Positions 15,966 through 48,879 of a stretch of 64,000 nucleotides of DNA are shown here, in pieces. The position numbers and the translations under genes are program-made. The stretch comes from Candidatus Gallispira edinburgensis (GTDB lineage Bacteria > Bacillota > Clostridia > Lachnospirales > CAG-274), in contig CAJFNV010000044.1 in NCBI GenBank assembly GCA_904395805.1, positions 1 to 64,000 on the forward strand, read 5' to 3'. Every line of letters starts with the position of its first letter. The stretch's first letter is position 1. The notes beneath the pieces are model-generated. The model was not told where the DNA came from and ran no database searches. It saw nothing but the letters and a program-made list of their open reading frames with translations.

Positions 15966-18900
15966 TTAAAAAATGTGTTTACCCTGCATATTATCAATGA
16001 GCCTAGTTTGGTTGTAATCATCGCCTTGTCTGACACAGCCACCATTACTATTCCATATTGATATAGTATTAATTGACTGGCTCCAGCCTTGATAAATTGC
16101 AATAGGATTAATTAAATTATTAGAAAATTCGCTCCAATTATATGAATTAGAACATATACCTATTTGGAAATCTAAGTGTTCTCCGCTTACGTTTCCTGTA
16201 GCACCTTGAATTGCTATTTGCTGCCCTGCAGCAACCACATCTCCAACTTTTAACGTACTGCTATTCATTTTTAAATGGTTATATTTGCTGTATACTTTTA
16301 CACCATTAATGTTGTGTTCGAGTACAATGACATATCCATATCCGGTTAATCCATTACCGTTACCTGATCCTATTAATACAACCTTTCCGTCCCATGCAGC
16401 TGCTATTCCGACATTTGTACCATATGTTACATCCAAATCAATAGCACGATGGAATGAACTGTGATATGAATCAAAGAAAGCAGATGTAACAACAGCTCTG
16501 CTTGCAAACTCATCAGTATATGGAGCATGAATATTGCCAAATTCAGCAGATACAGAACCTGTGCCTATTCCTACACTTACCAATGTTCCTGCTAAATGAA
16601 CATCAGGAGCTGTTCCTTCACCTATATTGCAATAGATAAATGGATCCATTTCTTCATTTCCATCAATAGATATAACTTCTATATGTACATATGGAACGCC
16701 TCTGTTTTCTGAATCAGACATGCTGGCGATACTTATGCCGGATTCAATTTCATCACCTTTATTAACAGTAATATTTTTCAGAGAACTGTATTTAACTTCA
16801 TACATATCATTTTTTAACGTTAACCCGTCACTAGTAACTTTAGTTACTTTTCCTGATATAACGGAGAGAACACTCGTATTGCTATCTCCTGCTATATCCA
16901 TACCTTTATGCTTTTGTATATCTGTGCCTTTGGCATAGTTTGTAAACTTGTAATATAAACTGCCACCTATATTACTGTTTCCTCCAGTTTTAATAAAACC
17001 TGTCACATATTTATAATCTGAGTCGTCATAATAATATCTATATCTGCCGACTTTAGATCTACTTAAGCTGTAAGAACCTGAATTTCCCTCAACCGTATCA
17101 AAATATGTATCTGTTGATTCCACTACTATACCTGTATGGCTGGCATTATAACTTTTTTGAATCATTATATCGCCCGGAACAGGAACATAACCGGTTTTGC
17201 CTTGCCATATACCTGCTTCTTTAGCATTCTCCATCAGCACACTAACTTCTGCTGTTTTAGGTACAACAGATGTCATATCTGCCTTATCAATACAATAGCT
17301 TACGAATGCAGCACACCAATTATAAAGTAGACTGCCTCTGATTTCGCCATACCATTCCGTATATTTGTTGGGAACACCTCTTACACCATCTTCAAGCTCT
17401 GATAATGCTATTGATACTAAATCATTAGTAGGTGCTATATTTGATATATTTCCATCATCAGACTTTGGTGTCAATAAAAAAACGGGTACATTAGTCTGTT
17501 TCCCGTGATTAAAAGCCTCCTGATGTGTGTTATAGAAAATATCAATTTTATTTCCTTTAATTGCTCCTCCTGTATCTTCTGCAGTATATATATGCCCATT
17601 AATTAATAACTTTGAACCTAATGGTATTTTTTTAGGATCAACAGCAACAGTTCTTCCCGCAACCGGAGTTGTACCGCTTTTTGTTTTCGGCGGATTCCCT
17701 GTGACTTCCGGGCTATACGGTCCGCAGCAAATCTTACAGGTGCAATATCCTGTTGTAGTAAACATACCCAAAGCGGTTTGATCATAGTGACTTAAATCTT
17801 CATCTGTAACTTCAATCCCCGCATTTGTATTAGAAAGCAATTCACCTGCTGACACAGATGTTATTCCACCATCTTCCGTTTCGTACCCATACAGACCTAC
17901 AACATAATTTCTCCAGTCATAATCAACAGGAGTATCTAGCCAAAAGCCATGATTACCTCTATATTCCATTAACTGTTGATAATGTATCTTAATTTCTTCA
18001 ACATCTTCTTCATCATATTCATCATTTGATGATAAAGCTTCAAGAAATTTTTCTATAGTGTTATTAAAACCATTATTATGAATATATACTGTAGCGATTG
18101 TAATAGTTTTAGCATTATCGCCGCTGCCAATAGTTTCATAAGTATATTTAACCTCAGAGCTATATTGATATTCAAACAATTCATTAATTACGTCTTTCAT
18201 ATTACCTGTATAGGGTAACCCGGTAATTTTTGAAATCAAATATTCAACAACTCCTCCGTTAAAATCAAACCCGGGATATAATGCTGATAAATAACAGATT
18301 AATTGCTCTGGATTATGTTCAATTGAATCAAAATCCGTATCTACTCTAGCAATATCCTCATCTTCATTCAAATCTTCAATTTTTTTATTAACATCAGCCA
18401 GAAAGTCTGCCTCTAATTCAGAATAATATGATGTACATGCTGTTATTTCCTTATTAGTGGTCATATATGTAGTAGTAGACAATGTATTACTAATACCAAC
18501 AACCATTAATATCGCAGCCCACAGGAATACAATTATTAAAAACACGATAGCAACTATAGCAATCACCGGTGCAGATGGAGCACTGATCAGAATTAAAGCA
18601 CCTTTAGATGCTCCGCTTCCTGCAGCAGCTTTAGACGCTTTATTTCTTATGATATTTGAAAGCCTTTGGCTCAATCTCATTGATTCTTCATACTGCTTTT
18701 TTTTCCGATAGTTTTTCGCAATTCTGTCAATATCCTTATTAGAATTAGATGTTGCAGATGTATTTGCTTCTTTTGATGCATTCTTTGAAATATCAGATTT
18801 AATTTTATCAGTTACGATACTTTCATATATCTTTTCCTTTGCTGATTTTTGAGCCAGATCAATAATTTCCTTTTCAGTATTTTTTTCGATATCCTCTCCA

Positions 18901-21161: not shown

Positions 21162-21176
21162 TGATAATTACCTCCA

Positions 21177-23582
21177 TTACTTTTTATTTTTTGCTTTTGC
21201 CCTATCTCTCGGATCAGTTGATATTAATTTATAAATAAGGCTATCGTTTGGAATTACATTTGTGAAAGGAATGATATCAGCATTATATTTAAAAAGTCCC
21301 ACTCCTTGCCTGTTCATAGATATATATTCCTGCTGATATTCTGTAAGCGATAACCTTTTACTAAGAATATTTAAATCATCTACACCTTGAGATAATAACG
21401 TTAAAAATAAAGTGTTGTCAAAAATATTATTAACAACCGGAGATTGTAAAAAGTCTTTAACATTCTGTGTAATCCCTGTAGGAATACCGTTCCACTTTCT
21501 GAATCTTTTCCAAAAGTCAACCATATAGGCTGCTGTTTGTGGTTGATTCAATAACACATGAAATTCATCTATATAGGTCCATGTATATATGTTATTATCA
21601 GAATTCTGAGCTACCTTTGCCCAAATAAAGTCAATAACAATCAACATTATCATTGACAACTCTCTTTTATTGTTTAATAGGTCTTTAACATTAAAAGAAA
21701 TAATTCTGCTTTTCAAATTAACATTAGTTTGATGATTTAAATAATCATCATCCCCACCAATATAATAGTCAATATAAGATGTTATAAAATCAGCAGCGGA
21801 TCTTTTCTGATTTTTAAGATTATTATATATATCCTCCAGTATTGGCATATGATCCAATCTTGAGTTTCTATAATCATTAAATACATCTGATATTGCATGT
21901 TTAATAGCACTTCTTATATCTCCAGATACAGCATATCCGCTGCCCACTAACATCTGCTCTACTATTGTTTCAAAAAATGAAATTTTAGAAGTAACAGGAT
22001 TTGATGAATAAGAGTAGCTTATATCAAACATATTAATGTAATCTTTTGATGTAGGGGACAGTTTTATAACCTGTCCCCCTAAACTTTTGACAAGATTATC
22101 ATATTCGCCTTCCGGATCTATAATATATATGTAATCATCAGTTACTAAGTAGACTTTTAATATTTCAAGTTTTGTAATAAAACTTTTCCCCATACCGGGG
22201 GCGCCTAATGTCAAACCGTTCGGGTTAGCAAGCTCTTTTTTCTCTTTCCGGTCAAAGACTACAACATTTTTACTTATTGCGTTTATAGCGTAAAATAATG
22301 CTTCCGGAGAAGAAGAATTAAGCTCTTTTGTCGTAAAAGGCTCAAATATTGCAAGTGTAAGCGTTGTTAAATTACGTTTATATTGATTTAACATATTTAA
22401 TCCTATTGGCAACGAGTTGAGAAAACCTTCTTCCTGAAAATAACTAAGAATTTTAAGCTGATTACTGCTTCTTGCAACAATTCCCCTTAACTTATCCCAT
22501 TCAAAAGTTAATTCATTTTTACTTGCAGCTGAATTCATTACCGTTACTGTTACCCAAAACATCTTTTCATTGCTGCTTTCAAGTTTATTTAAAAGCATAT
22601 CAACTCCATCGCTATTCTTTTTTACTTTTGGTGAAGCAAGTGCTGGATCATAAAATCCAACAACACTTTTTCTTTGTTCAGAAACCAAAGCCTGATTACA
22701 ATCTACCCACTTATTTCTGACCATTTTTAGAGCTCTTTCCTGATCTATAACTTCAATATGAAAGCTTATAAGAAGATTAAAATCAGTACTAAGCAAATCA
22801 TTTAACAACCGGTCATTTAGTTTATTGGCAATAATATTATAAACAGAGACTCTGTTATAAGTTTTGCCTATTTCAAAGAAATCAGAATTGTATGAAATGC
22901 TTTCAAGATTAAGCAGACGATTAACATCAACCTTTTTAATATTCCATGGTATTTTACAGAAGGATGTAAGTTCTTTACCTGATATAATTTGTCTCAATAA
23001 ATCTATATATTCATTTCTTGACAGTTGTTTGGCAGTTACTTTAAGCCTTGAAAAGTTATTTATTATATTAATTGTAATTTGATTTAACTTTTGACGTGCC
23101 AACCCTATATTGTCAGCTCTTACTGACACAATATAATACCTATTCTTTATAATTCCATTATTTGAGCCGGCTATCTGATTTGTTACAATTTCAGAATATT
23201 CTTTTCTTAAATAATCATAGCCATCTCCCTTATTTTCCAAAGAAATAGTTTTATTATGACCTTTTGTTGAAACTTTTCGATTGTAACAAAGCATTTGTAT
23301 ATCATTGGCATCTTCTGTAAAACCATTTATCAGCTCAGCAAACTTCTCTAGTATGGAAACCTTATCTTTATCTGTTCTTAAAGCGTAATTAATATCATCA
23401 AATTCTATGCAGCAAGTATAAAGATTGTTGTCTAAACTCATGACTCCATCGTTATAGCAAAAACCAATAGGAAGTCTGGGAGTATAAGGCAACTCATTTC
23501 CATTATTAAATAATTTTTCAACTACAGAAGTTTTCAGTTTTTTTAAATTCGAATTAAAATTATTTTTTTTGCTTTTTGTCAC
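21177..23582 (-). CDS. VirB4-type T4SS ATPase (TraE/TraC-like)
   Basis: An 801-residue ATPase. Walker A is TLGAPGMGKSFITK near residue 465, the Walker B region is YTWTYIDEFHVLL, and RFRKWNGIPTGITQNVKDF is the characteristic C-terminal motif. It powers substrate translocation at the inner face of the T4SS. The GTG start at 23582 overlaps the end of the PrgI gene by 23 bases, and a G-rich ribosome site lies inside that gene. The N-terminal domain, like other Gram-positive VirB4 homologues, would contact PrgI (VirB3-like), which is encoded immediately upstream. Confidence 0.92.
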   Translation of the reverse strand: MTKSKKNNFNSNLKKLKTSVVEKLFNNGNELPYTPRLPIGFCYNDGVMSLDNNLYTCCIEFDDINYALRTDKDKVSILEKFAELINGFTEDANDIQMLCYNRKVSTKGHNKTISLENKGDGYDYLRKEYSEIVTNQIAGSNNGIIKNRYYIVSVRADNIGLARQKLNQITINIINNFSRLKVTAKQLSRNEYIDLLRQIISGKELTSFCKIPWNIKKVDVNRLLNLESISYNSDFFEIGKTYNRVSVYNIIANKLNDRLLNDLLSTDFNLLISFHIEVIDQERALKMVRNKWVDCNQALVSEQRKSVVGFYDPALASPKVKKNSDGVDMLLNKLESSNEKMFWVTVTVMNSAASKNELTFEWDKLRGIVARSSNQLKILSYFQEEGFLNSLPIGLNMLNQYKRNLTTLTLAIFEPFTTKELNSSSPEALFYAINAISKNVVVFDRKEKKELANPNGLTLGAPGMGKSFITKLEILKVYLVTDDYIYIIDPEGEYDNLVKSLGGQVIKLSPTSKDYINMFDISYSYSSNPVTSKISFFETIVEQMLVGSGYAVSGDIRSAIKHAISDVFNDYRNSRLDHMPILEDIYNNLKNQKRSAADFITSYIDYYIGGDDDYLNHQTNVNLKSRIISFNVKDLLNNKRELSMIMLIVIDFIWAKVAQNSDNNIYTWTYIDEFHVLLNQPQTAAYMVDFWKRFRKWNGIPTGITQNVKDFLQSPVVNNIFDNTLFLTLLSQGVDDLNILSKRLSLTEYQQEYISMNRQGVGLFKYNADIIPFTNVIPNDSLIYKLISTDPRDRAKAKNKK

Positions 23583-23901
23583 TTGATTTTACTCCCCCCT
23601 TACCTTTTTTACTTCTCTTTTGAGGCAATAGTTTAAATTTTAACCTATGCCAAATATATTTTTCCAGAGGCATTGATTGTGGTCTTGACTCACAAAAAAG
23701 AAAAAGAGGAGGTAAAATTAAAAATGCTAAGATCATTGATGCTGCTTTATAGCTTATATTTCTTCCAATAATCCAAAAATCAAGCATACCTAGAATAATA
23801 CCTATAAGGATAAAAATAACTTGTCTTAAGCTTAAATTTCCAATAAGTTTATGTTTTACTTTAGTAATATCAATATTATTGTTAATTCTTTGATTAGCCA
23901 T
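23560..23901 (-). CDS. PrgI family protein (VirB3-like)
   Basis: A 113-residue protein. The NNIDITKVKHKLIGNLSLRQ start is typical of PrgI. Two transmembrane helices follow (about residues 29-50 and 55-73), then a basic Lys-rich tail (KLLPQKRSKKGKGGVK). PrgI proteins are the VirB3-like inner-membrane partners of VirB4 in Gram-positive T4SSs. The gene lies between VirB6 and VirB4 and overlaps the latter, which is the conserved order. Confidence 0.88.
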   Translation of the reverse strand: MANQRINNNIDITKVKHKLIGNLSLRQVIFILIGIILGMLDFWIIGRNISYKAASMILAFLILPPLFLFCESRPQSMPLEKYIWHRLKFKLLPQKRSKKGKGGVKSSDKKQKK

Positions 23902-23915
23902 TTTCCAACCTCCAA

Positions 23916-24845
23916 TTAATGAGCATTCATTATTGATTTTGCAATACTTTCGCTCTTGAACAAAGCTAAGAAAAGCATTATAACCGTAAAGAACAGTTTT
24001 AATGACATATCCTGTAAATCTCCTGACGAAACGAATACATTAGCAAGTGATCCGTAAAATATCGCAAAAATTGCAACAATTAACAGTGCTTGTATCGCAA
24101 AGGCAATCATTGATCTTACATAATTCGACCCTATCTGACCCCACTCTCCTTTTAAAGGTAATGTGGTTATGTTTAAAGGAGCTGTTATCATATAAATGTA
24201 TATCATCACAAATCGGCATACAATAATCATCCATGCTAGTGGCTGCAGCAATTGTGCAAACAATGATACAAGCAGCGATATAAACCAAAATATAAATACA
24301 TCTCCTAAAGAATTTTCCATTAATTGAGCCTTGGCATTTTCAGCCAATAAATCTATATCAATAGAATTAAGCACTGTCGATGGATCATTTCCTGTAAGAG
24401 CATTTAAAGCCCCTTCTGCTGCATTCGCACCCAATATAAATATTAAATCTAGAATTTCAAACGCATATGAAATCAATAGAGTTGATATTGTATATTTAAA
24501 TAACCATTTGATTATAAGTTCAGCATTATTATCTGACATTTTATTTTCGTTCAAAACCGTATTAACTAATTCATAAACCAAAAAAAATGACATGAAAACT
24601 ATAGCAATTGGCAATACGAAGTTATTGCTAAGCTCTTTTATTAAGTTATAAACACCTGTATTGTAATCGAAAGGGGTGCTTCCTATGTCCAATATTAAAC
24701 TAGTATCAAACATAGCTTTTACCCCTTCAAAAAATATTTTGTAATAACCTATAGCCATATCAAGAATTATTCCTTTGAACCACTCCATTACTTTATCAAG
24801 AAGTATATTTAAAGGATTAATACTAAGTAGTGTTAATTGAGGCAT
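23916..24845 (-). CDS. VirB6/TrbL-type polytopic membrane protein
   Basis: A 309-residue protein with about six hydrophobic segments, including LPIAIVFMSFFLVYELV, FIFWFISLLVSLFAQLL and LKLFFTVIMLFLALF. The N-terminal WFKGIILDMAIGYYKIFFEG segment and the conserved PLAWMIIVCRFVMIYIYM loop are typical of the VirB6/TrbL-like proteins of these ICEs. It would form part of the inner-membrane translocation channel. Position between the Maff2-like and PrgI genes supports the call. Confidence 0.85.
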   Translation of the reverse strand: MPQLTLLSINPLNILLDKVMEWFKGIILDMAIGYYKIFFEGVKAMFDTSLILDIGSTPFDYNTGVYNLIKELSNNFVLPIAIVFMSFFLVYELVNTVLNENKMSDNNAELIIKWLFKYTISTLLISYAFEILDLIFILGANAAEGALNALTGNDPSTVLNSIDIDLLAENAKAQLMENSLGDVFIFWFISLLVSLFAQLLQPLAWMIIVCRFVMIYIYMITAPLNITTLPLKGEWGQIGSNYVRSMIAFAIQALLIVAIFAIFYGSLANVFVSSGDLQDMSLKLFFTVIMLFLALFKSESIAKSIMNAH

Positions 24846-25290: not shown

Positions 25291-27417
25291 TTACTTTGTT
25301 GAATAATTCATAATATTGGGATCAAAATTTTTAATTCCTGTCTTTGTAGCCTTCTTCTTTTTCTCTTTTAAATATTCTTTTACATTAAAATAATCCTTTG
25401 GATTGTCTGCAATATATTTATATCTTTTATGATATGTAATATCATATTTATCAGAATAGAAGGGTTTTAAGCCAGAAATCATACATATGCATTTATTCCC
25501 CGGCATTCTGAACAATTCATCTGGGGTCATTAGTTCTCTACCCATCTTTTGATGATTTACATTTGAAGATTTTTGCTGCCCATAAGTATAACTTTGTGTA
25601 TATGAATCCAGAGTTTCTTTACCCAGTTTTTCACTAACTACTTTTAGCAGTTCCAAATCAGTTGACCCCAAAAAGAGAAATGATGAACAACAACTTTCTA
25701 TAGTTTCCCATGACTTATCATACAATTTCTTTAACTGACTTTGAGATTGAAGAATTATAGTTGCTGAAATATTCCTACTTCTAATGGTAGAAATCTTAAC
25801 ATCAAAATCAGGAATAAGTCCACAGTTAGCAAATTCGTCCAAAATAAAGTGAACATGTACCGGTAATTCACCGCCGTATTCCATATCAGCTGTATCACAC
25901 AACACTTTAAAAAGCTGATGATACATCATTGTTGTTATAAAATTGAACGTTTTATCTGTGTCAGATGTAACAATAAATAAAGCTGTTTTGGTGTTTTCTC
26001 TGCCAATTGAATAAAAGTCCAATTCATCCTGCGAAACCAAATCCTTTATTTCTCCTACATCAAGTGGAGATAATCTAGCCGCACAGCTTATGAGTATAGA
26101 TTTTGCTGTCTTTCCTGCAGCTAATTTATAATCCATATATTTTTGAACAGGTAAACAATCACGTCCGCCTTCAAATCCAAGTTCTTTAATGTATGGGTAT
26201 TTTTCTTTCACAGCATTAATTCTATTTCTTAAATTTATAAATCGTTTTTCCTGAGCATATACTCTTTTTTGCATATCAGGTGAATTAATGTCTTTATTGG
26301 GGAACAACTTTCTTAATGTCCTTTCTCTGTCCTTAAAATATTCAGGCAAATATTCTAAATCCCTGAAAGCTATATCCACTTCGTTTAATGAATCTTCATT
26401 GTTTTCATAAACCTTATTTCTACGAATCATTTTCATTAAAGTACATATATTCCTGTCTTTATCATCAGGACATGTGTAAAATATGTAGCTTATTTTTGCC
26501 AGATACATTAAAGTCTCCGCATTCTTCCAAAACTCATCTCCTGACTGGGATTTTTCGCTTACATCTTTTCCTATCTGCAAAAGAATTTGTGTTAAAGTCA
26601 GAATATCACTTTCAGATTTTATGTAATGGAATGGATTGTACTTATTGGATTCTCTCATGTTCTTAAGATTTAATATTCTTATGTCATATCCGTTATCTTT
26701 AAGAAGCTTTCCCGTTTTTTCAAGAGTATTGCCTTTAGGATCTGTTACAATATAAGATCCAAACATCTGCATAATATTAGGCTGAGTATATCCACGCGTT
26801 TTACCTGTTCCGGGTGCACCATCAATCATTACATTTTTATTTCTTCCCAGCTCCGGATGCCCTTTGGGCGGATGGAGTGATGTAGACAACCTTTCTGTTT
26901 TCGTTAATATTAAATTATAATCATCATTTGGGTTTATGAAAGGTTTTATAGTTTCTTCATTGCCCCATTCGGATGTACCATATTCACTGCCATCTTTTGT
27001 ATTTTTTGGTCGTTTATAAATAGTTTTCCAAACCTTTAAAGCAAAAAAGATTCCTGCTCCTGCTATCACAGGTAAAAATCTTATACTTGGAAACGGATAA
27101 AAAAACAACAAAAACGGATTACTGAAAAATAATCTTATAGTGTCTATTCCTGTAGAGGACATATCAGCACATAGGAAGAAAAATCCAATAGTCTTGTTCA
27201 CACAATAAGTAATTAATATTATCCAGAAATTGTCAACAAAAAACTCTTTACCATTTTTGCCCTTAACATCTAAGACCAAAAGCAAAGCTTTTATAAATTT
27301 ATCAAAAGTTTTACTTTTTTTTCTTAGGCTGTTTACTTCATCAGTGAAACATTTTAATATCTGTTTTATATTATTCTTAAAACTGTTTTTGTTTCTTTTA
27401 TTACTTATTTTTTCCAC
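25291..27417 (-). CDS. VirD4/TraG type IV coupling protein
   Basis: A 708-residue coupling ATPase. Two N-terminal transmembrane segments (about 68-85 and 98-120) are followed by DGSEYGTSEWG. Walker A is MIDGAPGTGKTRGYTQPN near 195. FGSYIVTDPKGNTLEKTG and HFILDEFANCGLIPDF (Walker B) follow, and SSFLFLGSTD is the usual C-terminal motif. It would bring the relaxase-DNA complex to the channel. The gene follows PcfB, its usual partner, after a 12-base gap. Confidence 0.93.
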   Translation of the reverse strand: MEKISNKRNKNSFKNNIKQILKCFTDEVNSLRKKSKTFDKFIKALLLVLDVKGKNGKEFFVDNFWIILITYCVNKTIGFFFLCADMSSTGIDTIRLFFSNPFLLFFYPFPSIRFLPVIAGAGIFFALKVWKTIYKRPKNTKDGSEYGTSEWGNEETIKPFINPNDDYNLILTKTERLSTSLHPPKGHPELGRNKNVMIDGAPGTGKTRGYTQPNIMQMFGSYIVTDPKGNTLEKTGKLLKDNGYDIRILNLKNMRESNKYNPFHYIKSESDILTLTQILLQIGKDVSEKSQSGDEFWKNAETLMYLAKISYIFYTCPDDKDRNICTLMKMIRRNKVYENNEDSLNEVDIAFRDLEYLPEYFKDRERTLRKLFPNKDINSPDMQKRVYAQEKRFINLRNRINAVKEKYPYIKELGFEGGRDCLPVQKYMDYKLAAGKTAKSILISCAARLSPLDVGEIKDLVSQDELDFYSIGRENTKTALFIVTSDTDKTFNFITTMMYHQLFKVLCDTADMEYGGELPVHVHFILDEFANCGLIPDFDVKISTIRSRNISATIILQSQSQLKKLYDKSWETIESCCSSFLFLGSTDLELLKVVSEKLGKETLDSYTQSYTYGQQKSSNVNHQKMGRELMTPDELFRMPGNKCICMISGLKPFYSDKYDITYHKRYKYIADNPKDYFNVKEYLKEKKKKATKTGIKNFDPNIMNYSTK

Positions 27418-27429
27418 CCTCTTTATTTA

Positions 27430-28011
27430 TTAAAGAGACATATCTCTTTGTAAATCCTTACTATGTTCAATATCCTCATTGTGAGCATCAGCCTCATATT
27501 GAGCAGCATCAAGTACGGAATCTAAATCCATACCAATATCATCTTTAATATTATCTTTTTCTTCTGATACTATATCTTTTTCATCTGCATCGGCTGATTT
27601 TTCTTTTGGATTTTGGTTTACTTTTTCAGCACTTTTTTCCTTATTTCTTTCGATTTCATCCATTTGCTTTGAAAATTCGTTCAATGCGAAATGAACTTTG
27701 CTCACATCATCTGCACGGAAATATATAGTATATGAATCATTGCCCATATCCTGAACGGTATATTGAACTTTTGCAGACTTCATACAGTTTTTAAAAACCT
27801 CTAAAGATTGCTTATCCATATCAGTCTTTGCAAACTCATCAATCCTAACATTTTTATTCGTGTTAAAAAACTTTTCAGGTGTAACTTCGCCAACAGCTTT
27901 ATAAGCATTTGCTTTAATTAGAGCATTTAATTCTTTAAATAAAGATATACTTCCTCTAGTAAGTCTGACCATAAAAGATAATCCTTCTTCAGCAAGTGTT
28001 TCTCTTGGCAT
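27430..28011 (-). CDS. PcfB/DUF3801 family protein
   Basis: A 193-residue protein. The N-terminal LSFMVRLTRGSISLFKELNA segment and central YTIYFRADDVSKVHFALNEF strand-helix are DUF3801 hallmarks. The C-terminal 70 residues are a charged, low-complexity tail with YEADAHNEDI near the end. PcfB of pCF10 binds the coupling protein PcfC and the relaxosome. Here it lies directly upstream of the coupling-protein gene and downstream of the surface-protein genes. Confidence 0.85.
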   Translation of the reverse strand: MPRETLAEEGLSFMVRLTRGSISLFKELNALIKANAYKAVGEVTPEKFFNTNKNVRIDEFAKTDMDKQSLEVFKNCMKSAKVQYTVQDMGNDSYTIYFRADDVSKVHFALNEFSKQMDEIERNKEKSAEKVNQNPKEKSADADEKDIVSEEKDNIKDDIGMDLDSVLDAAQYEADAHNEDIEHSKDLQRDMSL

Positions 28012-28078
28012 TTTTTAACCTCCTTAAAAATATAAGAGGATAGGACTACAAGCCCTATCCCCATCAAAAAAATTAAAC

Positions 28079-31000
28079 TTATTTAGTTAAGTAATTGTAT
28101 ATTACAACAGCCATTTCAGCTCTTGTAATATCAGCCTGTGGTTTAATGTTACCATTATCACCAACAACAGCATTAATGCTGCTTAGATAAGCAACATAAG
28201 GAGCTGCCCACCAGCTTACGCTATTACCATCATTGTACTTATCAAGTACAGATGTGTCGACAGCTTCAAAGTTATAATCTGTTCCGGCAAACAATTTTGC
28301 CATAATAACAAACATTTCTTCTCTGCTGATTGTCTGTTCAGGCTTAAACGTGCCGTCACCGTAGCCGATAAATACATCAGCGGCTGCACAATTAGCAATT
28401 GCCTGAGCATAATAACTATTTGCATCTACATCTGTAAATGTGTACGCATTAGAGTTATTTAAGTCAAGCAGTCTATCCAGTACAAGTGCAAAATCGCCTC
28501 TCTTAGTACTCAAGTCAGGCTTAAATTGATCATCTGTAACGCCATTTACAATACCATTTTCGTGTAAATACTCAATATAGTCCTCTGCCCAATGACCGAT
28601 AACATCTTCAAATCTGTTATCATTATCTTCACTTGTTGATTCTGTACTATCTTCAACAACTTCATCAGTAACATCCTCTGTAGTCGCTTCTGTTGTAGTT
28701 GTGACAAGTCCGCCGCCAGCTCCGCTGCCACCGCCACTTGAAGGACGTCTTGTAGTTGTTTCGGTTTCAGCTTCAGTTGTTGTTTCAGTAGTTGTCTCTG
28801 TAGTAGTTATAGGTCTTACCACAATAGGAATTTCTACTTCAACTCCACCTACTACTACAGTAACACTGTTATCATCAGGAGTTAAAGGCTGGTTATCAAC
28901 TACTGTTATATTATCAGCCTTAACTGTTTCTTTTGAACCATCATTATAAGTGATTTCAGCTTCTGTTCCTGTCTTGTCGAAGTTTTCGCCTTCTTCATAT
29001 TCAGTCTTATCAGGCTGCTTTGTAATCACTACAGAAGATATTTCTTTTTTAATGACAGCAATAGGGACATTGATTTTTTCGGTTAAACCATTATATTCAT
29101 AATAGATTACACCGTAAATATCACCAAGTTTAAGAGGTGTTTCATCAATGCGTACATCACTACCCTTGATAAATTCTTTAGATCCGTCATTGTATGAAAT
29201 TTCAATAACAAGTCCCTCAGGATCAAACACTTCACCTTCAACATACACACGCTTTGTCGGAAGGCTGATAATCTTAACACCTGCTGAATTACCATTGTTT
29301 TCTTCAGTTGTTTCAGTTGAATCTTCGGTTGTAACCTCAGAACCACCGTCATTTGTAGTAACTTCTGTTGAACCATCACTTGAAGTTGTAGTTTCTGTAC
29401 TTACATCAGAACCTGATGTAGTAGTTTCGCTTCCTTCATTTCCTGTTGTTACTTCTGTGCTATCAGAAGTTGTTACCTCTGTTGAACCTTCTGTTGTAGG
29501 ATATTTATCATCATCTGAACCGATTATTGCTTTCTTGTAAACAGTTATAGGCTGTTCAGCTTCATGTCCGTCAAAAGAAATAACAACAAAAGTATCATCC
29601 ATTTCAAGAGGTCTTACAGGATAACTGTAGTCTGTAATTTCTTCTCTTGTACCGTCTTTATAAACAGCTTCTACGACCATACCTGATTTGTCAAAGGTCT
29701 GCCCTTCAACATAGTTTACCTTGTCAGGAGGTGTAATAATTTCAATGTGATCAATTGTAACGTGCTTATAATATGCATTTAAAATCCAAATGATATCAAG
29801 CATATTTATTTCGCCATCGTCATTTGCATCTGCATTTAATTTATAGATAGTATCAAGTGACCACATACCCAATACAGCCTTTTCAACAAGTACTGCATCA
29901 TATTCTGTTACTTCACCATCACCATCTATATCAGCGTTTATAAGTCCCTCATCAGAAAGACTTACATTACCATTGATATAATTCTTAATGAGTGTCACAT
30001 CTTCATCTGTAAGTACTTCGTCACCATCGACATCACCTGTATGTACAGCCTTATAACCATACTCTACAACACTGCCTAATATCTTTGAAAGTATCATTGC
30101 ATCTTCAGGAGTAACATTGCCATCTCTGTTTAAGTCACCGTTTCTTTCAGGTACAAGACTTTCTAAGCCAGCCATTGAAAGAATAATGCTTACATCATCA
30201 GTGAAGCCCTCGTATTCAATGGTTATGCTTGTGTCACCTGCTTCAAACGGATCTGTTACATATGTGTAATCACTTATTACAGCTGATGTTCCATCATTGT
30301 AATAAGCTGTTACTTCCATGCCATCAGGGTTAAATACTTCGCCTTCTTCATACTCAAGCTTATAAGGAAGCTTAGTAACTTCAATACCTGTAATTTCCTT
30401 TGCAGCAACACTGATTGAAACAGTTGTTTCGACATCGCCTTTGCTGATAGTTACAAAGTTATCGTCAAGATTTAAACCTCCTGCCGGATTAATCTTGTAA
30501 TCAATAATAATTTCTGTAGTTCCGTCTTCATAGGTTATCTGTACTATCATGCCGGTATCATCGAAAGATTCACCTTCAACATATTCTGTCTTTACAGGAT
30601 TCTTAAGAATCTTTATATCGACAATATCACTGTCTTTAACTGTAACCGGAACAGTTGTGTACACACCGTCACAAGTTACATATACTTCTGTAGTATCGGC
30701 TGATAACTTATTAGTATCAACTTTGTAATCAGTAATGATGTCTGTACTACCATCATTATATGTTGCCTCTACAACCATTCCGGTAGGATCGAATTCCTGA
30801 CCTGCAAGATATTCGGTCTTATCAGGAGCTTTTGTAATCTCAAGGCTTACTATAGCCTTTTCAACAACATTTACAGTAATAGTGTCAGAAACACCATCTT
30901 TTGATATTACTATATCTTCTTTGCCGGTAAAGTCTGTATCTCCTGTTTCCTGACCAACAGCATATCTTAATATCCAGTTGGCATCGAGAACATTAATTCC

Positions 31001-34000
31001 CGGTAAACCGTCGCAGTCTGCAGCTACGGCATCAAAATTACCTGTTACAGTAGTACCGGATATATATTTAAGCACAAGAGCTGCATCCACTCTGTCAATG
31101 TTGCCATCGCCGTTTACATCGCCTCTTACACTATTTGTACCGGTAATAATTTCAGGCTGCCAAGTGTAATCATAGATAAGTGCAGATGTGCCATCATTAT
31201 AATAAGCCTCAACGATCATTCCATCAGGGTTGAAAGCCTGACCTACAACATAATCCATCTTATCAGGATTCTTTGTTACTTCAATTTTAACAATTTCCTT
31301 TTTAACAACACTAATAGGTGTTGTTGCTGTCTTGTCACCTGCAGTTACAGTTATATATGTATCAGCTGTTGTTAAAGGAGAATTTGTATAAGTATATTCG
31401 GCAGTTGCTAAAGGCTCCTTGCTGCCATCAGAATAAGTTGCTTCAACAACCATTCCGATAGGATCAAAAAGCTGTCCTTCAACATAATTTGTCTGTGAAG
31501 GTGGTGTAATTACCTCAATACCTGTAATTTCCTTTGCAGCAACACTGATTGAAACAGTTGCAAAGTAATTTTTATATGTTACATATATAGAAGTAGTGCC
31601 TTCTGATAATGCTGCATCTGTAACAGCATAATCAGTTATTTCCTGTTCAGATCCGTCACTGTAGACAGCTTTAACAATCATGCCAGTCTTGTCAAATGTC
31701 TGCCCTGCAATGTAGGATACCTTGTCAGGCTGCTCTGTTACCTTAATTCCTGTTAAAGTTACAATATCATTAACTGTAATCGAAACTGTTGCATATACAT
31801 TATCATAAGTAATGTATACCTGTGCCTGTCCTGCAGCAAGCTTATTTCCATCAACCTTATAGTTTGTTATATTTTCTGTGCTGCCATCGTTGTAATGAGC
31901 CATTACAACCATGCCAGCCGGGTTAAAGTAATCTCCTGCTGTATATTCTGCTTTGTCAGGTGCATTTGTGATCTCAATACTTACAACACCTTTTTCAACA
32001 ACAGAAATTGGGGTAGTGGCTGATTTTCCATTTTTACTAACAGTTATTTCTGCTGTACTTCCATTTACAGTCTTTGGACCGTAATCGTAGTCTGATATTT
32101 CTGCAGTGGATCCATCATTATATGTTGCAGTTACAATCATTCCTGAAATATCTACAGCCTGTCCTGCAATATAACTTATTTTATTAGGTGATTTTGTTAC
32201 AGCTATATTTGTAATTTCCTTTTCAACAACTGTAATAGGTACTGTTGCAGTTGCTGAGCCTGCGGATATAGTTATAACATTATCATCACTAGTTAAAGCA
32301 GCTGAAGGTAAGTATGAATATTCTGTAGATGCCAAATCCTCTGTGCTGCCGTCTGTATAAGTTGCAGTTACAACCATGCCGGTTGGGTTAAATACTTCAC
32401 CTTCGACATAAGAAGTCTTGTCAGGCTGACTTGTAACTGTTATACTTGAAATTGCCTTTGATGCAACACTTACAGGCACAGAAGTATAATAATTGTTATA
32501 AGTAATATAAACACTTGTCTGTCCTGTAACTAAAGGTGTAGTATCAACACTATAATTTGTTATAGTCTGTTCAGATCCGTTGCTATAGACAGCCTTTACT
32601 TCCATACCGGTCTTGTCGAAAGTCTGTCCTGCTATATAACTAACCTTGTTAGGTGCAGTTGTTACCTTAATTCCTGTTAAAGTTACAACTTCCTCAGCAT
32701 TTACAGTTATATCTACAGTGGCAAACAAATTATTATCATAAGTAATATAAACTTTTGTCTGTCCTGCTGCTAAAGGTGTTGTATCTACAGTGTAATCATT
32801 AATAACAGCAGTGCTGCCGTCATTGTAATGTGCAACAACAGTCATTCCCGTAGAATTAAACACTTCTCCTGCAGTATATTCTGTATAATCAGGATTACTT
32901 GTAATTTCAATGCTCACAACACCTTTTTCTGTAACAGTAATAGGTGTTGTAGCAGTCTTACCGTCTTTACTTATAGTTATATATGTTGTATCTTCACTTA
33001 CAACATTAGGACTATAGCTGTAATCGTTAATTACAGCTGTTGTACCATCATTGTATGTTGCAGTTACAATCATTCCTGTAACATCTACAGACTGTCCTGC
33101 AATATAACTTATTTTGTCAAGTGCTTTTGTTACAGCTATAGCTGTTATTTCTTTTTCAACAACCGTAATAGGCACAGATGCTGTTTTTCCTCCGGCAGAA
33201 ATAGTAATTGACTTAGTACCCGCTTGTAAAGCATTTTCAGAATATGAATATTCTGTATTAGCCAAATCTTCTTTACTTCCATCTGTGTAAGTTGCTGTTA
33301 CAACCATTCCCAAAGGATTAAATACCTCACCATCTACATAAGACGTTTTGTTTGGCTGTGTTGTTACAGCTATGCTTGAAATAGCCTTATCAGCAACACT
33401 TATAGGTGCTTTTGTATAAACACCATCATAAGTCACATATACACTTGTCTGTCCTGCAGTCAAAGGTGTTGTATCTACAGTATAATCATTAATAACAGCT
33501 GTACTGCCGTCATTGTATGTTGCAGTAATTGTCATTCCAGTTTTATCAAAAGTCTGTCCTGCAATGTATGACACCTTGTCAGGCTGCTTTGTGACTTCCA
33601 ATTTCACAATGGATTTTTTAACGATATTAATTATTCCGTTAAAACTAAAAACAACTAAATCATCTTCTTCCGGGTAATAAATATTGCCCGGGAATTGTCC
33701 TGATCCTGATACAGAACGAAAAGGTAAAGATAATTTACCGGTGTAATTATAAAGACCAGCTTCTAGACTTGTTGCCCCAAGTAAATGTTTCCCATTAACA
33801 TAGTTATAAATATAATCAGATGGAATCTTATAAGAACCAGAGCTGTTACTATCAAAAAAGTCATTAAAATCTAATTCAATTGCATCCCAGCTGTAATTAT
33901 TTGTAATTTCAGGGAAATAACATTCATCTGAAGATGCATAATATATTGTGGGCAATATCAAACTCATTATTTCAGTAAGACTAAACCTTTGAGAGTCGCC

Positions 34001-34633
34001 GTCAATATAAACAGTTTTAGATGAATCAGCTGTTATTTTATATGCCGGTAGATAATTATATACTGAGGTATGCAAATAATCAGGTTTGCTTAAAGTTGGA
34101 TTTTCTTCCAAAGCATTTAACAAATCTTCAATCATTTCGTCTGAATACACATTAACATAGCTGGAATCTACCGTGTCAAAAGAAATTTCATCAGAAGAAT
34201 AATTAAGAGTGACATGTACTAGTGCACGCTTATACATAGTATTACTATAATCTTCTGTTAAATTTTCAGAACCTGTGAAATCAGGATCAATATATTCAAT
34301 AGATGTACTTATCTTCAAATTGCCTGATTCAATTTCATCTCGAATTTCTTCGGCTGAATAGCTGCGACCATTAATTGAAAATTCAAGTTCTTCTGCCCAA
34401 TCAACTTCATTGTTAAAGAAATCTGATACATAATTTTCAGAAATAAACTTTATAATAGCTCCATCTTTTGTTGTAAATTCGTAACTAGCAGAGGCACCGC
34501 TGTTGTAAAAATTATTTTTTAAATATCCAGTATATGAAACAGCAAATACATTACTAACATTGAATACCCCCATACTTGTAAATACCATTACAAAAGCAAG
34601 TATGGAAGCCAAAAATTTTTTAATTTTGCTCAT
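28079..34633 (-). CDS. Giant surface scaffold: Ig-like repeats, dockerins, SLH domains
   Basis: A 2184-residue secreted protein. Signal peptide MSKIKKFLASILAFVMVF... ends near residue 32; a unique N-terminal domain runs to about 340. Then come about 17 bacterial Ig-like (Big_3) modules of 70-80 residues, each with a GMxVxAxYNDGS-type core. A type I dockerin-like module (GDVNGDGNIDRVDAALVLKY, about 1169-1230) sits inside one Ig module. A tandem of four Ca-loop repeats (about 1496-1625; GDLNRDGNVTPEDA, GDVDGDEVLTDEDV, ADIDGDGEVTEYDA, ADANDDGEINMLDI) lies between two others. Thr/Ser/Glu linkers follow, then three SLH domains (about 2003-2184, FEDVIGHWAEDY) that bind secondary wall polymer. It is a plausible mating adhesin and scaffold. 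The place in the operon is one often held by sortase-anchored adhesins. Confidence 0.9.
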   Translation of the reverse strand: MSKIKKFLASILAFVMVFTSMGVFNVSNVFAVSYTGYLKNNFYNSGASASYEFTTKDGAIIKFISENYVSDFFNNEVDWAEELEFSINGRSYSAEEIRDEIESGNLKISTSIEYIDPDFTGSENLTEDYSNTMYKRALVHVTLNYSSDEISFDTVDSSYVNVYSDEMIEDLLNALEENPTLSKPDYLHTSVYNYLPAYKITADSSKTVYIDGDSQRFSLTEIMSLILPTIYYASSDECYFPEITNNYSWDAIELDFNDFFDSNSSGSYKIPSDYIYNYVNGKHLLGATSLEAGLYNYTGKLSLPFRSVSGSGQFPGNIYYPEEDDLVVFSFNGIINIVKKSIVKLEVTKQPDKVSYIAGQTFDKTGMTITATYNDGSTAVINDYTVDTTPLTAGQTSVYVTYDGVYTKAPISVADKAISSIAVTTQPNKTSYVDGEVFNPLGMVVTATYTDGSKEDLANTEYSYSENALQAGTKSITISAGGKTASVPITVVEKEITAIAVTKALDKISYIAGQSVDVTGMIVTATYNDGTTAVINDYSYSPNVVSEDTTYITISKDGKTATTPITVTEKGVVSIEITSNPDYTEYTAGEVFNSTGMTVVAHYNDGSTAVINDYTVDTTPLAAGQTKVYITYDNNLFATVDITVNAEEVVTLTGIKVTTAPNKVSYIAGQTFDKTGMEVKAVYSNGSEQTITNYSVDTTPLVTGQTSVYITYNNYYTSVPVSVASKAISSITVTSQPDKTSYVEGEVFNPTGMVVTATYTDGSTEDLASTEYSYLPSAALTSDDNVITISAGSATATVPITVVEKEITNIAVTKSPNKISYIAGQAVDISGMIVTATYNDGSTAEISDYDYGPKTVNGSTAEITVSKNGKSATTPISVVEKGVVSIEITNAPDKAEYTAGDYFNPAGMVVMAHYNDGSTENITNYKVDGNKLAAGQAQVYITYDNVYATVSITVNDIVTLTGIKVTEQPDKVSYIAGQTFDKTGMIVKAVYSDGSEQEITDYAVTDAALSEGTTSIYVTYKNYFATVSISVAAKEITGIEVITPPSQTNYVEGQLFDPIGMVVEATYSDGSKEPLATAEYTYTNSPLTTADTYITVTAGDKTATTPISVVKKEIVKIEVTKNPDKMDYVVGQAFNPDGMIVEAYYNDGTSALIYDYTWQPEIITGTNSVRGDVNGDGNIDRVDAALVLKYISGTTVTGNFDAVAADCDGLPGINVLDANWILRYAVGQETGDTDFTGKEDIVISKDGVSDTITVNVVEKAIVSLEITKAPDKTEYLAGQEFDPTGMVVEATYNDGSTDIITDYKVDTNKLSADTTEVYVTCDGVYTTVPVTVKDSDIVDIKILKNPVKTEYVEGESFDDTGMIVQITYEDGTTEIIIDYKINPAGGLNLDDNFVTISKGDVETTVSISVAAKEITGIEVTKLPYKLEYEEGEVFNPDGMEVTAYYNDGTSAVISDYTYVTDPFEAGDTSITIEYEGFTDDVSIILSMAGLESLVPERNGDLNRDGNVTPEDAMILSKILGSVVEYGYKAVHTGDVDGDEVLTDEDVTLIKNYINGNVSLSDEGLINADIDGDGEVTEYDAVLVEKAVLGMWSLDTIYKLNADANDDGEINMLDIIWILNAYYKHVTIDHIEIITPPDKVNYVEGQTFDKSGMVVEAVYKDGTREEITDYSYPVRPLEMDDTFVVISFDGHEAEQPITVYKKAIIGSDDDKYPTTEGSTEVTTSDSTEVTTGNEGSETTTSGSDVSTETTTSSDGSTEVTTNDGGSEVTTEDSTETTEENNGNSAGVKIISLPTKRVYVEGEVFDPEGLVIEISYNDGSKEFIKGSDVRIDETPLKLGDIYGVIYYEYNGLTEKINVPIAVIKKEISSVVITKQPDKTEYEEGENFDKTGTEAEITYNDGSKETVKADNITVVDNQPLTPDDNSVTVVVGGVEVEIPIVVRPITTTETTTETTTEAETETTTRRPSSGGGSGAGGGLVTTTTEATTEDVTDEVVEDSTESTSEDNDNRFEDVIGHWAEDYIEYLHENGIVNGVTDDQFKPDLSTKRGDFALVLDRLLDLNNSNAYTFTDVDANSYYAQAIANCAAADVFIGYGDGTFKPEQTISREEMFVIMAKLFAGTDYNFEAVDTSVLDKYNDGNSVSWWAAPYVAYLSSINAVVGDNGNIKPQADITRAEMAVVIYNYLTK

Positions 34634-34648
34634 TTTTCTACCTCCTGC

Positions 34649-35242
34649 TTACTCTACAAGTTCAATGCTTGAACCTGATTCTACGGAATCAGGAATCTCC
34701 ACAGATAAACCGCTTTCAACATTATCACCTGATGTTTCAGTATTTGTACTTAAATCATAGACATCAGAATAGAAGTATTCATCTTCGTCAGCCATCACAT
34801 CAGAATACCTTGCAACTTGATGTAATGTAGTGTTGATTTCTGTAGTCTTATTTTCAGAGTTGGGATTAATTTCAAATGTAATGTTAGCTATTACATTATT
34901 ATCTTCCAAAGAATAAAAATCCTTATCCGCCCAGCCGACAATTAATGTACCCTCTGATACCTTATCAGCAACTAAATAGCCTCTGTTAACAACTGCTACA
35001 GCATAACTTTCGTCTCCAAGAATATCTTCTCCCGCAAGCACGGGAGTAATATCATCAGGATTGTAATTAATTGTGGCTATAAATCCATTGACTGTACTCA
35101 TTGCTGATGTGTCGATTTTAACAGGCACAATAATTTCATTGCCAGATCCTGTTTCCATATCTGCATAAGCTGACATATTGACACAGCTAATAGCAAATAC
35201 TGTAGACAGCAACGCAACCACAGTTTTTCTTAGTTTTTTCAT
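34649..35242 (-). CDS. Secreted cohesin-like domain protein
   Basis: A 197-residue protein with a signal peptide (MKKLRKTVVALLSTVFAISC ... AYA). Residues about 38-155 follow the cohesin pattern: IIVPVKIDTSAMSTVNGFIA, then INYNPDDITPVLAG, GTLIVGWAD, and NVIANITFEINPNS near the end of the fold. The last 40 residues are acidic and Ser-rich without LPXTG or SLH. Cohesins bind dockerins, and the next gene encodes three dockerin-like modules, so the two products probably interact. AGGAGGAAAAACAAG precedes the ATG. The domain call is from pattern only. Confidence 0.65.
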   Translation of the reverse strand: MKKLRKTVVALLSTVFAISCVNMSAYADMETGSGNEIIVPVKIDTSAMSTVNGFIATINYNPDDITPVLAGEDILGDESYAVAVVNRGYLVADKVSEGTLIVGWADKDFYSLEDNNVIANITFEINPNSENKTTEINTTLHQVARYSDVMADEDEYFYSDVYDLSTNTETSGDNVESGLSVEIPDSVESGSSIELVE

Positions 35243-35265
35243 CTTGTTTTTCCTCCTATTTTATT

Positions 35266-35958
35266 TTAAAATTTATATCCCCAAGCTCTTAATATCTCAT
35301 CACTTAGTAAAAAAGCTCTATACTCAGCATTGGGAACATTTGTATTCTTAAAAGCAATCCCTTTTGTAATATCTATATTTTTCCAACCATCATTAACATA
35401 CACTTTAATCCATTCGTGAGACATATCATTATTCACTACTATTTCACAGGGAATATTTAACCTGTTCATTACTTCTCTAAAAGCCAAAGACAATGCAGCA
35501 CATGTTCCTTGCTTTGTTTCAACCAAGCGACATATGTCATAATTCATCAGCGTATTATCATAAGAGTAATTTTTTATAAAATAGTCATAGACTATTTTGA
35601 TTTTTTCAGGATTTGAATATCCGTCTGTCAGTGTTATAATATTTTCAATCTCACCTTCAATTAAATTTTCTTTCTCAGCTATTTCCTCCTGAGGTACTCT
35701 GTAATATAGTCTGATTTTACCTACTATACCATCAGCATTAACATCAATAGGTGCATATTGAGTGTCTAAGTACCACACATTTTCTTCTGCAAATATTCCG
35801 ATCAGATAATTACTTATTTTGGCTTTAGTCAAATTTAATTCAGAAATATCAACCGTTTCATTATGATTTTCAGCAGCTTTCAAAAATAAAAATTTAAACT
35901 CTGCCGCCTCGGAAGTATCTGCAAAAGCTGTTGATGTTGAAAAAATAAGCAAAGACAA
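35266..35958 (-). CDS. Secreted transglutaminase-like protein with interrupted signal peptide
   Basis: The open frame starts at a TTG (35958), but the apparent native start is an ATG at 35991 with GGAGG upstream. Codon 7 from that ATG is TGA (35971-35973). Readthrough would give MNKAVA-stop-IAALLSLLIF..., a normal signal peptide cut after AFA. The mature part (about 210 residues) has a transglutaminase-like triad: Cys in KQGTCAALSLAFREV, His in DMSHEWIKVYV, Asp in NIDITKG. A Ca-loop-like VNADGIVG lies near residue 75. Possible roles are crosslinking or a protease-like activity at the surface. It heads the surface and transfer operon. Without suppression or use of the TTG it is a null allele. 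Confidence 0.7.
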   Translation of the reverse strand: MSLLIFSTSTAFADTSEAAEFKFLFLKAAENHNETVDISELNLTKAKISNYLIGIFAEENVWYLDTQYAPIDVNADGIVGKIRLYYRVPQEEIAEKENLIEGEIENIITLTDGYSNPEKIKIVYDYFIKNYSYDNTLMNYDICRLVETKQGTCAALSLAFREVMNRLNIPCEIVVNNDMSHEWIKVYVNDGWKNIDITKGIAFKNTNVPNAEYRAFLLSDEILRAWGYKF

Positions 35959-35970
35959 AAGAGCTGCTAT

Positions 35971-35991
35971 TCAAGCAACCGCTTTATTCAT
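35971..35991 (-). other. Native start region with premature TGA stop
   Basis: ATG at 35989-35991, six sense codons (M N K A V A), then TGA at 35971-35973, in frame with the transglutaminase-like gene. AAGGAGG stands seven or so bases before the ATG. The open frame resumes after the TGA, with in-frame TTG codons available as restart sites. Confidence 0.85.
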
Positions 35992-36015
35992 ACATACCTC
36001 CTTTTTCAAAGAAAA

Positions 36016-36043
36016 AAGAACCATACTTATAAGTACAGTTCTT
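36016..36043 (-). terminator. Leader terminator upstream of transfer operon
   Basis: On the minus strand AAGAAC and GTTCTT close a stem whose inner arms are TACTTA/TAAGTA, directly followed by a run of T. It lies between leader peptide 1 with its palindrome and the ribosome site of the first structural gene, so it would act as an attenuator rather than an end-of-gene terminator. Confidence 0.75.
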
Positions 36044-36094
36044 TCCTTTTGGGATGGAATTTAGTTTTTATATAATAAAAATACGTTTAGATTT

Positions 36095-36121
36095 AGCTTT
36101 CGGACAACTTGTCCGGAAGTT
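36095..36121. repeat. Palindrome copy 2 (core GGACAACTTGTCC)
   Basis: Core at 36102-36114, flanked by AGCTTTC and GGAAGTT. It lies 11 bases after the stop of the first 10-residue leader peptide and ahead of the leader terminator of the transfer operon. Confidence 0.85.
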
Positions 36122-36125
36122 TAAA

Positions 36126-36158
36126 TCAGGGAGGTACTCCTGATAATAATATGTACAT
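36126..36158 (-). CDS. Leader peptide 1, MYILLSGVPP
   Basis: A 10-codon minigene, ATG at 36158, TGA at 36126. AAAGGAG lies eight bases before the ATG. The peptide ends Ser-Gly-Val-Pro-Pro-stop. A second module at 37.3 kb has the same peptide length, ribosome-site spacing, SG-x-PP end and downstream palindrome at the same distance. Pro-Pro at a stop codon is known to slow termination, so a ribosome-stalling regulatory leader is likely. The inducer is unknown. Confidence 0.7.
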   Translation of the reverse strand: MYILLSGVPP

Positions 36159-36752: not shown

Positions 36753-36779
36753 TTGAAACTCGCAGGAATTGAACCTGCT
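36753..36779 (-). tRNA. tRNA 3' fragment (T arm and acceptor half), remnant
   Basis: On the minus strand GCAGG-TTCAATT-CCTGC forms a perfect T arm, followed by GAGTTTCA like a 3' acceptor strand. No matching 5' acceptor strand GAAACTC lies upstream; instead there is a terminator hairpin. It reads as a tRNA remnant or a tRNA-mimic processing site, not a working tRNA. Confidence 0.5.
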
Positions 36780-37321: not shown

Positions 37322-37354
37322 CTAAGGCGGAATACCACTGTTAATATAAGCCAT
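37322..37354 (-). CDS. Leader peptide 2, MAYINSGIPP
   Basis: A 10-codon minigene, ATG at 37354, TAG at 37322. AAAGGAG lies eight bases upstream, inside an AT-rich segment similar to that ahead of leader peptide 1 (ATAAATAAATAT shared). The peptide ends Ser-Gly-Ile-Pro-Pro-stop. It pairs with palindrome copy 3. The module is a diverged duplicate of the one at 36.1 kb. Confidence 0.7.
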   Translation of the reverse strand: MAYINSGIPP

Positions 37355-37549: not shown

Positions 37550-37574
37550 TAGGACTTGCAGGAATCGAACCTGC
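37550..37574 (-). tRNA. tRNA 3' fragment (T arm and acceptor half), remnant
   Basis: On the minus strand GCAGG-TTCGATT-CCTGC is a perfect T arm, followed by AAGTCCTA. No 5' strand AGGACTT, D arm or anticodon arm is found upstream. It differs in sequence from the fragment at 36.76 kb, so the two came from different tRNAs. Confidence 0.5.
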
Positions 37575-37740: not shown

Positions 37741-37813
37741 CTGGAGTGACAAGATTCGAGGCTTGCAAATGCAGGGATCAAAACCCTGTGCCTTACCCTT
37801 TGGCGACACCCCA
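37741..37813 (-). tRNA. tRNA-Gln-like (anticodon TTG), possibly degenerate
   Basis: The full cloverleaf can be drawn. The acceptor is TGGGGTG/CACTCCA with one G-T pair. The D arm is GCC/GGC. The anticodon arm CAGGG-TTTTGAT-CCCTG is perfect. The T stem GCAAG/CTTGT has an unusual 8-base loop, CCTCGAAT, instead of TTCGAAT. The discriminator is G and no CCA is encoded. It starts seven bases after the stop of the HTH gene and would be cotranscribed with it. It could be a decoy, pseudo-tRNA or processing signal. Confidence 0.55.
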
Positions 37814-48826: not shown

Positions 48827-48879
48827 AAAAATATTATAGCACATCCCTCGTCAAAAATCAATAAAAGGATGTGTTTGCA

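Follow-up and report, generated by a model that had tools for sequence, protein, structure and literature searches.

A cohesin, double-dockerin and SLH surface module in integrative and conjugative elements of Candidatus Gallispira edinburgensis and relatives: a possible mating adhesin

Introduction

PrgB of pCF10 and TIE of pLS20 are large secreted surface proteins that promote mating contacts (PMC8092201, PMC6540685). Tandem dockerins are known from C. thermocellum, in which the double dockerin dDoc_0689 (PDB 8x39/8x3a) is carried on an S8 protease and prefers a cell-bound cohesin (PMC12484212). Here, a set of genes with likenesses to both is described from a 64,000-nucleotide stretch of Candidatus Gallispira edinburgensis (assembly GCA_904395805.1, contig CAJFNV010000044.1, positions 1 to 64,000), referred to below as the window. 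The set lies in an integrative and conjugative element (ICE) and encodes a transglutaminase-like protein, a small cohesin and a large scaffold with dockerins and SLH domains. Conserved in related ICEs, it may constitute a regulated, wall-anchored adhesin for mating or aggregation with an element-specific cohesin-dockerin pair, a reading to which we give about even chances.

Like PrgB and TIE, the scaffold would be a large secreted, wall-associated protein, and it is encoded with transfer genes; unlike them, with their thioester or PrgB domains, it has an SLH anchor, a stalk of Big_3 modules and, likely, cohesin-dockerin chemistry. It shares with the cellulosome and the amylosome the cohesin and dockerin families and SLH anchoring, whereas here the scaffold itself carries the dockerins, its partner is a lone cohesin, no enzymes or carbohydrate-binding module belong to the cohesin-scaffold set, and the location is a mobile element. 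A cellulosome has a multi-cohesin scaffoldin that recruits dockerin-bearing enzymes; each ICE module has one cohesin. The module is most likely similar to PrgB and TIE in purpose and to cellulosomes in chemistry, yet not a cellulosome. As in dDoc_0689, two tandem dockerins form one unit, but this unit is placed in the middle of an Ig-like adhesin, and the cohesin is encoded in the operon. No paper describing cohesin or dockerin genes on an ICE was found in the open-access literature.

The surface module of the window

All three open reading frames (ORFs) described here by an earlier note on the window are present, and their features are as follows (signal peptides were judged by eye throughout).

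28079..34633, minus strand: scaffold/adhesin of 2184 amino acids with signal peptide, 17 Big_3 modules, a single and a double dockerin, acidic T/E-rich linkers and three C-terminal SLH domains (Pfam)
30938..31132, minus strand: single dockerin, residues 1168-1232, within a Big_3 unit, its second calcium loop degenerate (hidden Markov model (HMM) score 105.8 bits)
29744..30148, minus strand: double dockerin, residues 1496-1630, made of four F-hand repeats and present in every one of the seven ICE scaffolds
28082..28621, minus strand: SLH anchor region, about residues 2005-2184, without LPXTG (three SLH domains, Pfam)
34649..35242, minus strand: putatively secreted single cohesin of 197 amino acids with signal peptide and acidic tail, without dockerin or anchor (Pfam 2.6e-6)
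35266..35991, minus strand: transglutaminase-like gene (Pfam) with ATG at 35991, an in-frame TGA at codon 7 (35973-35971) and an alternative start, TTG, at 35958

The scaffold had been described as a 2184-residue protein of about 17 Ig-like modules and three SLH domains, and Pfam agrees with 17 Big_3 modules (7.9e-61) and three SLH domains (7.2e-35), together with Dockerin_1 in four stretches (4.6e-24); like the cohesin and transglutaminase matches given below, all of these are far beyond chance. The three dockerin-like regions of the earlier description are also found, although two of them form one tandem double dockerin (1496-1630), which had been overlooked, next to the single one at 1168-1232. 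They possess the paired F-hand calcium loops with following helices of type I dockerins (PF00404), some loops being degenerate. Big_3 spacing suggests that the single dockerin was inserted inside a Big_3 unit; the AlphaFold2 (AF2) prediction of this region had a predicted local distance difference test (pLDDT) score of 38 and did not model the insertion. The PDB entry that matches this unit best, 8x39 (E 1.2e-15), is a double dockerin of C. thermocellum; the entry is titled only 'Serine protease', and its double-dockerin identity is taken from a review (PMC12484212). The signal peptide and three SLH domains characterize the scaffold as a predicted SLH-anchored surface protein, and its place among transfer genes is that of a conjugative surface adhesin, with wall anchoring predicted from the SLH domains. 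No carbohydrate-binding or catalytic domain was found in it by Pfam.

The cohesin matches PF00963 with 28.1 bits against a curated cut-off of 24.1. Its AF2 model is all-beta (pLDDT 83, core above 90), and the top Foldseek matches of this model are cohesins (E about 2e-4, TM about 0.5), with other beta folds mixed in lower down. The prediction gives moderate support to a nine-stranded jelly-roll cohesin fold, and the proposal of a cohesin-like protein at this locus stands. At least one C-terminal dockerin F-hand is present in 10 of 11 sampled chromosomal relatives, and the eleventh (G005) has a degenerate one by eye; by comparison, none of the six ICE cohesins examined has an F-hand, and five of them end in a short acidic-rich tail. 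The seven known ICE cohesins group in a single clade (99/96), which a long stem sets apart from the chromosomal cohesins. Because the chromosomal relatives mostly carry a C-terminal dockerin and the ICE cohesins examined do not, the ICE lineage appears to have split cohesin and dockerin into two proteins.

Recurrence in related elements

With the window cohesin as query, matches were obtained in 13 of 48 genomes of the family, but no more than seven loci are close, with E at or below 7e-27 (the window, G005:C7, G007:C11, G009:C6, G009:C3, G011:C29 and G022:C123). All seven lie among genes of a type IV secretion system (T4SS) or ICE. When a profile was built from the seven, neither 392 genomes from other families of the order (E 1e-8) nor 391 genomes of the class (E 1e-15) yielded a comparable match. 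Apart from the window's genome, a GTDB scan led to the same six loci. Three metagenome-assembled genomes (MAGs), whose isolate names start with Lapin (the French word for rabbit), account for four of them, and further Clostridia/Clostridiales MAGs for the remaining two. Relatives were absent from IMG/VR, plasmids and phages.

Scaffold homologues were identified in G005, G007, G009 (two), G011 and G021, which makes seven with the window. The double dockerin is 60-69% identical to that of the window among six aligned scaffolds, and in a search of the 48 genomes the next match falls from 7e-61 to 4e-11. The single dockerin occurs only in the window and G011 among the seven. Cohesin and scaffold stand side by side at six loci, and the G021:C44 scaffold lies directly before virB2 on a short contig, beside T4SS genes.

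The module occupies at least two slots of divergent ICE backbones. In one, the order is cohesin, scaffold, pcfB and virD4 (window, G011 and G009:C3), so that the slot upstream of pcfB, which the earlier note had singled out for a survey, holds cohesin and scaffold in these two further ICEs; in the other, it is topoisomerase, transglutaminase, cohesin, scaffold and helicase (G005, G007 and G009:C6). The independent cases number about five, because G005, G007 and G009:C6 are near-copies in related MAGs. Between the window and G011, the VirD4 proteins are 70% identical and the cohesins 38%; therefore, the surface genes change faster or were exchanged. No fixed chromosomal copy of the module, of the kind that would have spoken against an ICE-borne set, was found in the surveys.

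Other ICEs hold different surface genes at corresponding places. For instance, the stretch after virD4 in G024 and G025 contains other secreted repeat proteins and an SLH protein, and G009:C3 has the cohesin/double-dockerin set and an alternative surface set side by side. Cassettes of this kind in or near the T4SS operon (L133:3471-8400, L140:1852-6839 and L041:15620-20000) encode repeat-rich secreted proteins and a separate SLH protein. They resemble the present module in their T4SS-region place and SLH anchor, and L133 has the same leader as described below; they differ in using repeat-rich proteins in place of the cohesin/double-dockerin pair, and L041 has both sets adjacent.

Transglutaminase-like gene

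The product of 35266-35958 matches Transglut_core (3.6e-10, Pfam) and keeps the catalytic Cys-His-Asp (C-H-D) residues, in line with the transglutaminase-like protein reported earlier; its description as secreted is not borne out in the window, where the ORF is interrupted inside the signal peptide. The ATG at 35991 has a good Shine-Dalgarno (SD) sequence, and the frame reads MNKAVA before the stop; the longest open frame, from the TTG at 35958, misses most of the signal peptide. The gene may be dead because of the TGA at codon 7; probably it is either broken or weakly expressed, although the TGA could also stem from the assembly or be a variant of the strain. A conserved recoding signal was considered for the early TGA and rejected; the stops reported in other homologues are at the C-terminal end.

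Homologues with C-H-D residues and an intact signal peptide are present in G005, G007 and G009, and the gene lies directly upstream of the cohesin in four ICEs as well as in the window. Members of the family are found, too, on other contigs and in ICEs that have no cohesin nearby. In cohesin-less ICEs (L127-L132, L145), a secreted transglutaminase-like protein with a D-x-D/N-x-D/N-G calcium-like loop is encoded between the virB4 region and the topoisomerase genes. In the second ICE of G009 (L042:6242-11590), the gene is located towards the serine recombinase end, and about 11 kb separate it from the cohesin.

Leader peptides and hairpins

The module is preceded by a small leader ORF, and hairpins stand on both sides of it.

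36126..36158, minus strand: leader ORF MYILLSGVPP-stop with strong SD, upstream of the module
36097..36119, minus strand: hairpin CTTCCGGACAAGTTGTCCGAAAG 3' of the leader (fold z -3.2)
36012..36047, minus strand: terminator-like hairpin with U run between leader and transglutaminase gene (fold z -3.9)
37322..37354, minus strand: second leader ORF MAYINSGIPP-stop, followed by a hairpin at 37315-37293
28036..28062, minus strand: terminator-like hairpin between scaffold and pcfB-like gene (fold z -4.0)

The core of hairpin CTTCCGGACAAGTTGTCCGAAAG is repeated after the leader at 37322. Such leaders are small ORFs with a strong ribosome-binding site and the ending G-(I/V/L)-P-P-stop, a pattern found at 10 sites in the 48 genomes, compared with one for the reversed control. 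At least 8 of the 10 sites are in ICE context; the G029 site is not clearly so, and that of G019 lies close to the end of its contig, downstream of a PcfB-like gene. The leader is 5' of the transglutaminase gene in the window, G005, G007, G009:C6 and G022, upstream of the cohesin in G011 (with a GTG start) and before a surface gene in G024. Terminator-like hairpins follow it in the window, G005, G007, G009 and G024. Leader ORFs of this kind, often with hairpins or terminators, precede ICE surface genes in the window and in L034, L036, L038, L040, L043, L133 and L134. In other families of the order, matches to the pattern were mostly out-of-frame or due to chance; two or three are possibly real, none of them shown to be in an ICE. 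Rfam contains no known RNA for the leader or the hairpins and matched instead a tRNA-like element and a sub-threshold snoRNA. The leader is possibly a ribosome-stalling attenuator absent from Rfam, which could control the module by leader-peptide attenuation.

Hairpins at the place equivalent to the scaffold-pcfB gap are present in G011, G009:C3 and G005, and terminator-like ones stand before virB2 in G021.

The surrounding element

The window contains a relaxase, a coupling protein, a VirB4 (by AAA/TraG P-loop and homology) and a recombinase, which together identify an ICE, and the module adjoins a full set of its transfer genes.

858-1229: MobC/NikA-like gene
1604..2986, plus strand: MobP-type relaxase
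15966..24845, minus strand: T4SS genes for VirB6-like, PrgI, VirB4-like and M23/3D cell-wall hydrolase proteins
25291..27417, minus strand: VirD4 coupling protein (Pfam 4.7e-59)
27430..28011, minus strand: PcfB-like (DUF3801) gene, Pfam match marginal, exactly at cut-off
48871..50565, plus strand: large serine recombinase at the ICE right end, adjoining chromosomal queA

Clear calls were obtained for VirD4, VirB6, PrgI, the M23/3D hydrolase, a CD1107-like protein, topoisomerase, helicase, relaxase and serine recombinase; the VirB4-like ATPase call is based on AAA/TraG P-loop matches. The genes around the module further include RepA-like and SSB, and the helicase is a helicase/Toprim protein. 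The claim that the module heads the T4SS operon holds for gene order and strand; a single transcript is not assured, given the hairpin before the pcfB-like gene. Similarly, of its position directly upstream of pcfB and virD4, VirD4 is clear, and the identity of pcfB depends on the marginal DUF3801 match.

On the right, the ICE ends in the interval from the recombinase (50565) to queA (50619). On the left it runs off the contig, because the relaxase is at 1604-2986 and the contig starts at base 1, and no convincing attachment repeat was found for the window ICE, only short AT-rich matches (left end off contig). The ICE encodes a 2686-amino-acid fusion (6772-14832, minus strand) with DUF3991, Toprim, MutS-I-like and helicase domains. 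Between ICE genes, a tRNA-like element (37741-37813, minus strand) scores 43 bits with Rfam tRNA and is not called by ARAGORN, and two exact T-arm-like pieces GCAGGTTCRATTCCTGC lie at 37558-37574 and 36762-36778 (minus strand); these are perhaps decayed tRNA genes. A piece similar to GCAGGTTCRATTCCTGC is directly upstream of the cohesin in L040.

Host cohesin/dockerin system

The host genome has about ten cohesin matches, several below cut-off, and about 20 dockerin matches. It encodes dockerin-bearing pectate lyases, one with the carbohydrate-binding module CBM77, and proteins combining weak cohesin matches with SLH repeats. On host contig C24, pectate lyases with dockerins are clustered with small cohesin-dockerin proteins (L047:8089-16994), as judged from their domains a pectin-degrading cohesin/dockerin system. 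Host small cohesin-dockerin proteins (e.g. L047:15426-16157, whose cohesin is 32% identical to that of the window) have about 240-270 amino acids and would be secreted like the ICE cohesin; unlike the ICE cohesin, nearly all of those sampled have C-terminal dockerin repeats. The window's single dockerin is similar to one in a host pectate lyase/cohesin protein, and the two have a 'VADC/AADC...LDAxWILR' stretch in common. In this host group, cohesin-dockerin chemistry is thus nothing out of the ordinary, in contrast to an element-specific set carried by ICEs. The earlier note mentioned neither the host system nor the dockerin missing from the ICE cohesin, the putative leader and terminator control and the alternative surface cassettes of related ICEs.

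Proposed function and alternatives

As a mating adhesin, the module would be transcribed under the control of leader-peptide attenuation. After secretion, the scaffold would be anchored to the donor wall through its SLH domains, its Ig-like modules forming a long stalk, and the co-secreted, ICE-specific cohesin would bind the double dockerin with calcium. The complex may then promote donor-recipient contact or aggregation for conjugation. The additional host-type single dockerin of the window could also attach to cohesins anchored in the walls of bacteria of the same group, recipients included. Several observations weigh against this proposal. With neither a second module nor an anchor, the ICE cohesin has no evident bridging route; the window transglutaminase is interrupted; and in G022 the cohesin adjoins a non-dockerin protein, with no double dockerin detected in that genome. 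Co-expression of scaffold and T4SS is not assured because hairpins lie between the scaffold and the transfer genes. Many ICEs of the family have no module, which is hence not needed for transfer in general. A bolder version, which we consider only tentatively, is that the ICE family evolved an orthogonal cohesin-double dockerin pair by splitting the host's fused cohesin-dockerin adaptor, thereby controlling who sticks to whom in conjugation, with production switched by ribosome stalling on the Pro-Pro-stop leader.

The main rival of the adhesin assigns the soluble cohesin the role of a cap that saturates the dockerins of the donor's scaffold and blocks donor-donor or host-cohesin sticking, while recipients without it present free cohesins and are bound, giving surface exclusion or target discrimination. 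A chain terminator would be expected to look like the ICE cohesin, which is single, lacks an anchor and is devoid of the dockerin of its chromosomal relatives, and the SLH-bearing host proteins with weak cohesin matches, the dockerin-bearing pectate lyases and the host-like single dockerin fit this role; however, host cohesins may be unable to bind the double dockerin, because it differs from host dockerins and is specific to the ICEs. We regard the cap as unlikely. Somewhat less likely again is a cargo that benefits the host by attaching enzymes or fibres to the cell, or the cell to its substrate, and is carried for fitness and not transfer. The pectinolytic system of the host and the self-contained form of the module, a cassette between terminator-like hairpins, are in its favour; the constant location inside or beside transfer genes, the alternative surface cassettes at equivalent places of other ICEs and a scaffold free of carbohydrate-binding or catalytic Pfam domains speak against it.

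The earlier note had further suggested that the transglutaminase cross-links the complex into a covalently locked adhesin. This is improbable in general and not supported in the window, where the gene is interrupted at codon 7, and the family is found in ICEs without a cohesin. The intact homologues of G005, G007 and G009 and the gene's place directly 5' of the cohesin would suit such a lock, but Transglut_core also covers proteases, and the acidic tail of the window cohesin has neither Lys nor Gln. That host surface genes were merely captured by chance and serve no dedicated purpose on the ICE is very improbable: the components belong to host-like families and the window transglutaminase is interrupted, as capture would allow, whereas the module recurs in divergent ICE backbones with one cohesin clade and a shared leader, and its double dockerin is kept at 60% identity or more while the cohesins fall to 37%.

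Implications

The recurrence of the kit suggests that the elements of these uncultured gut Clostridia have borrowed the docking chemistry of bacteria that degrade plant fibre, probably so that cells stay together while DNA is transferred. The module is a concrete candidate for the means by which Gram-positive anaerobes of the gut that have no known pili or sortase adhesins hold on to their conjugation partners; it uses an interaction family with well-established binding assays and structures, and it comes with a small leader peptide that may control it. If the adhesin reading is true, cohesin-dockerin chemistry would extend from polysaccharide degradation to gene transfer.

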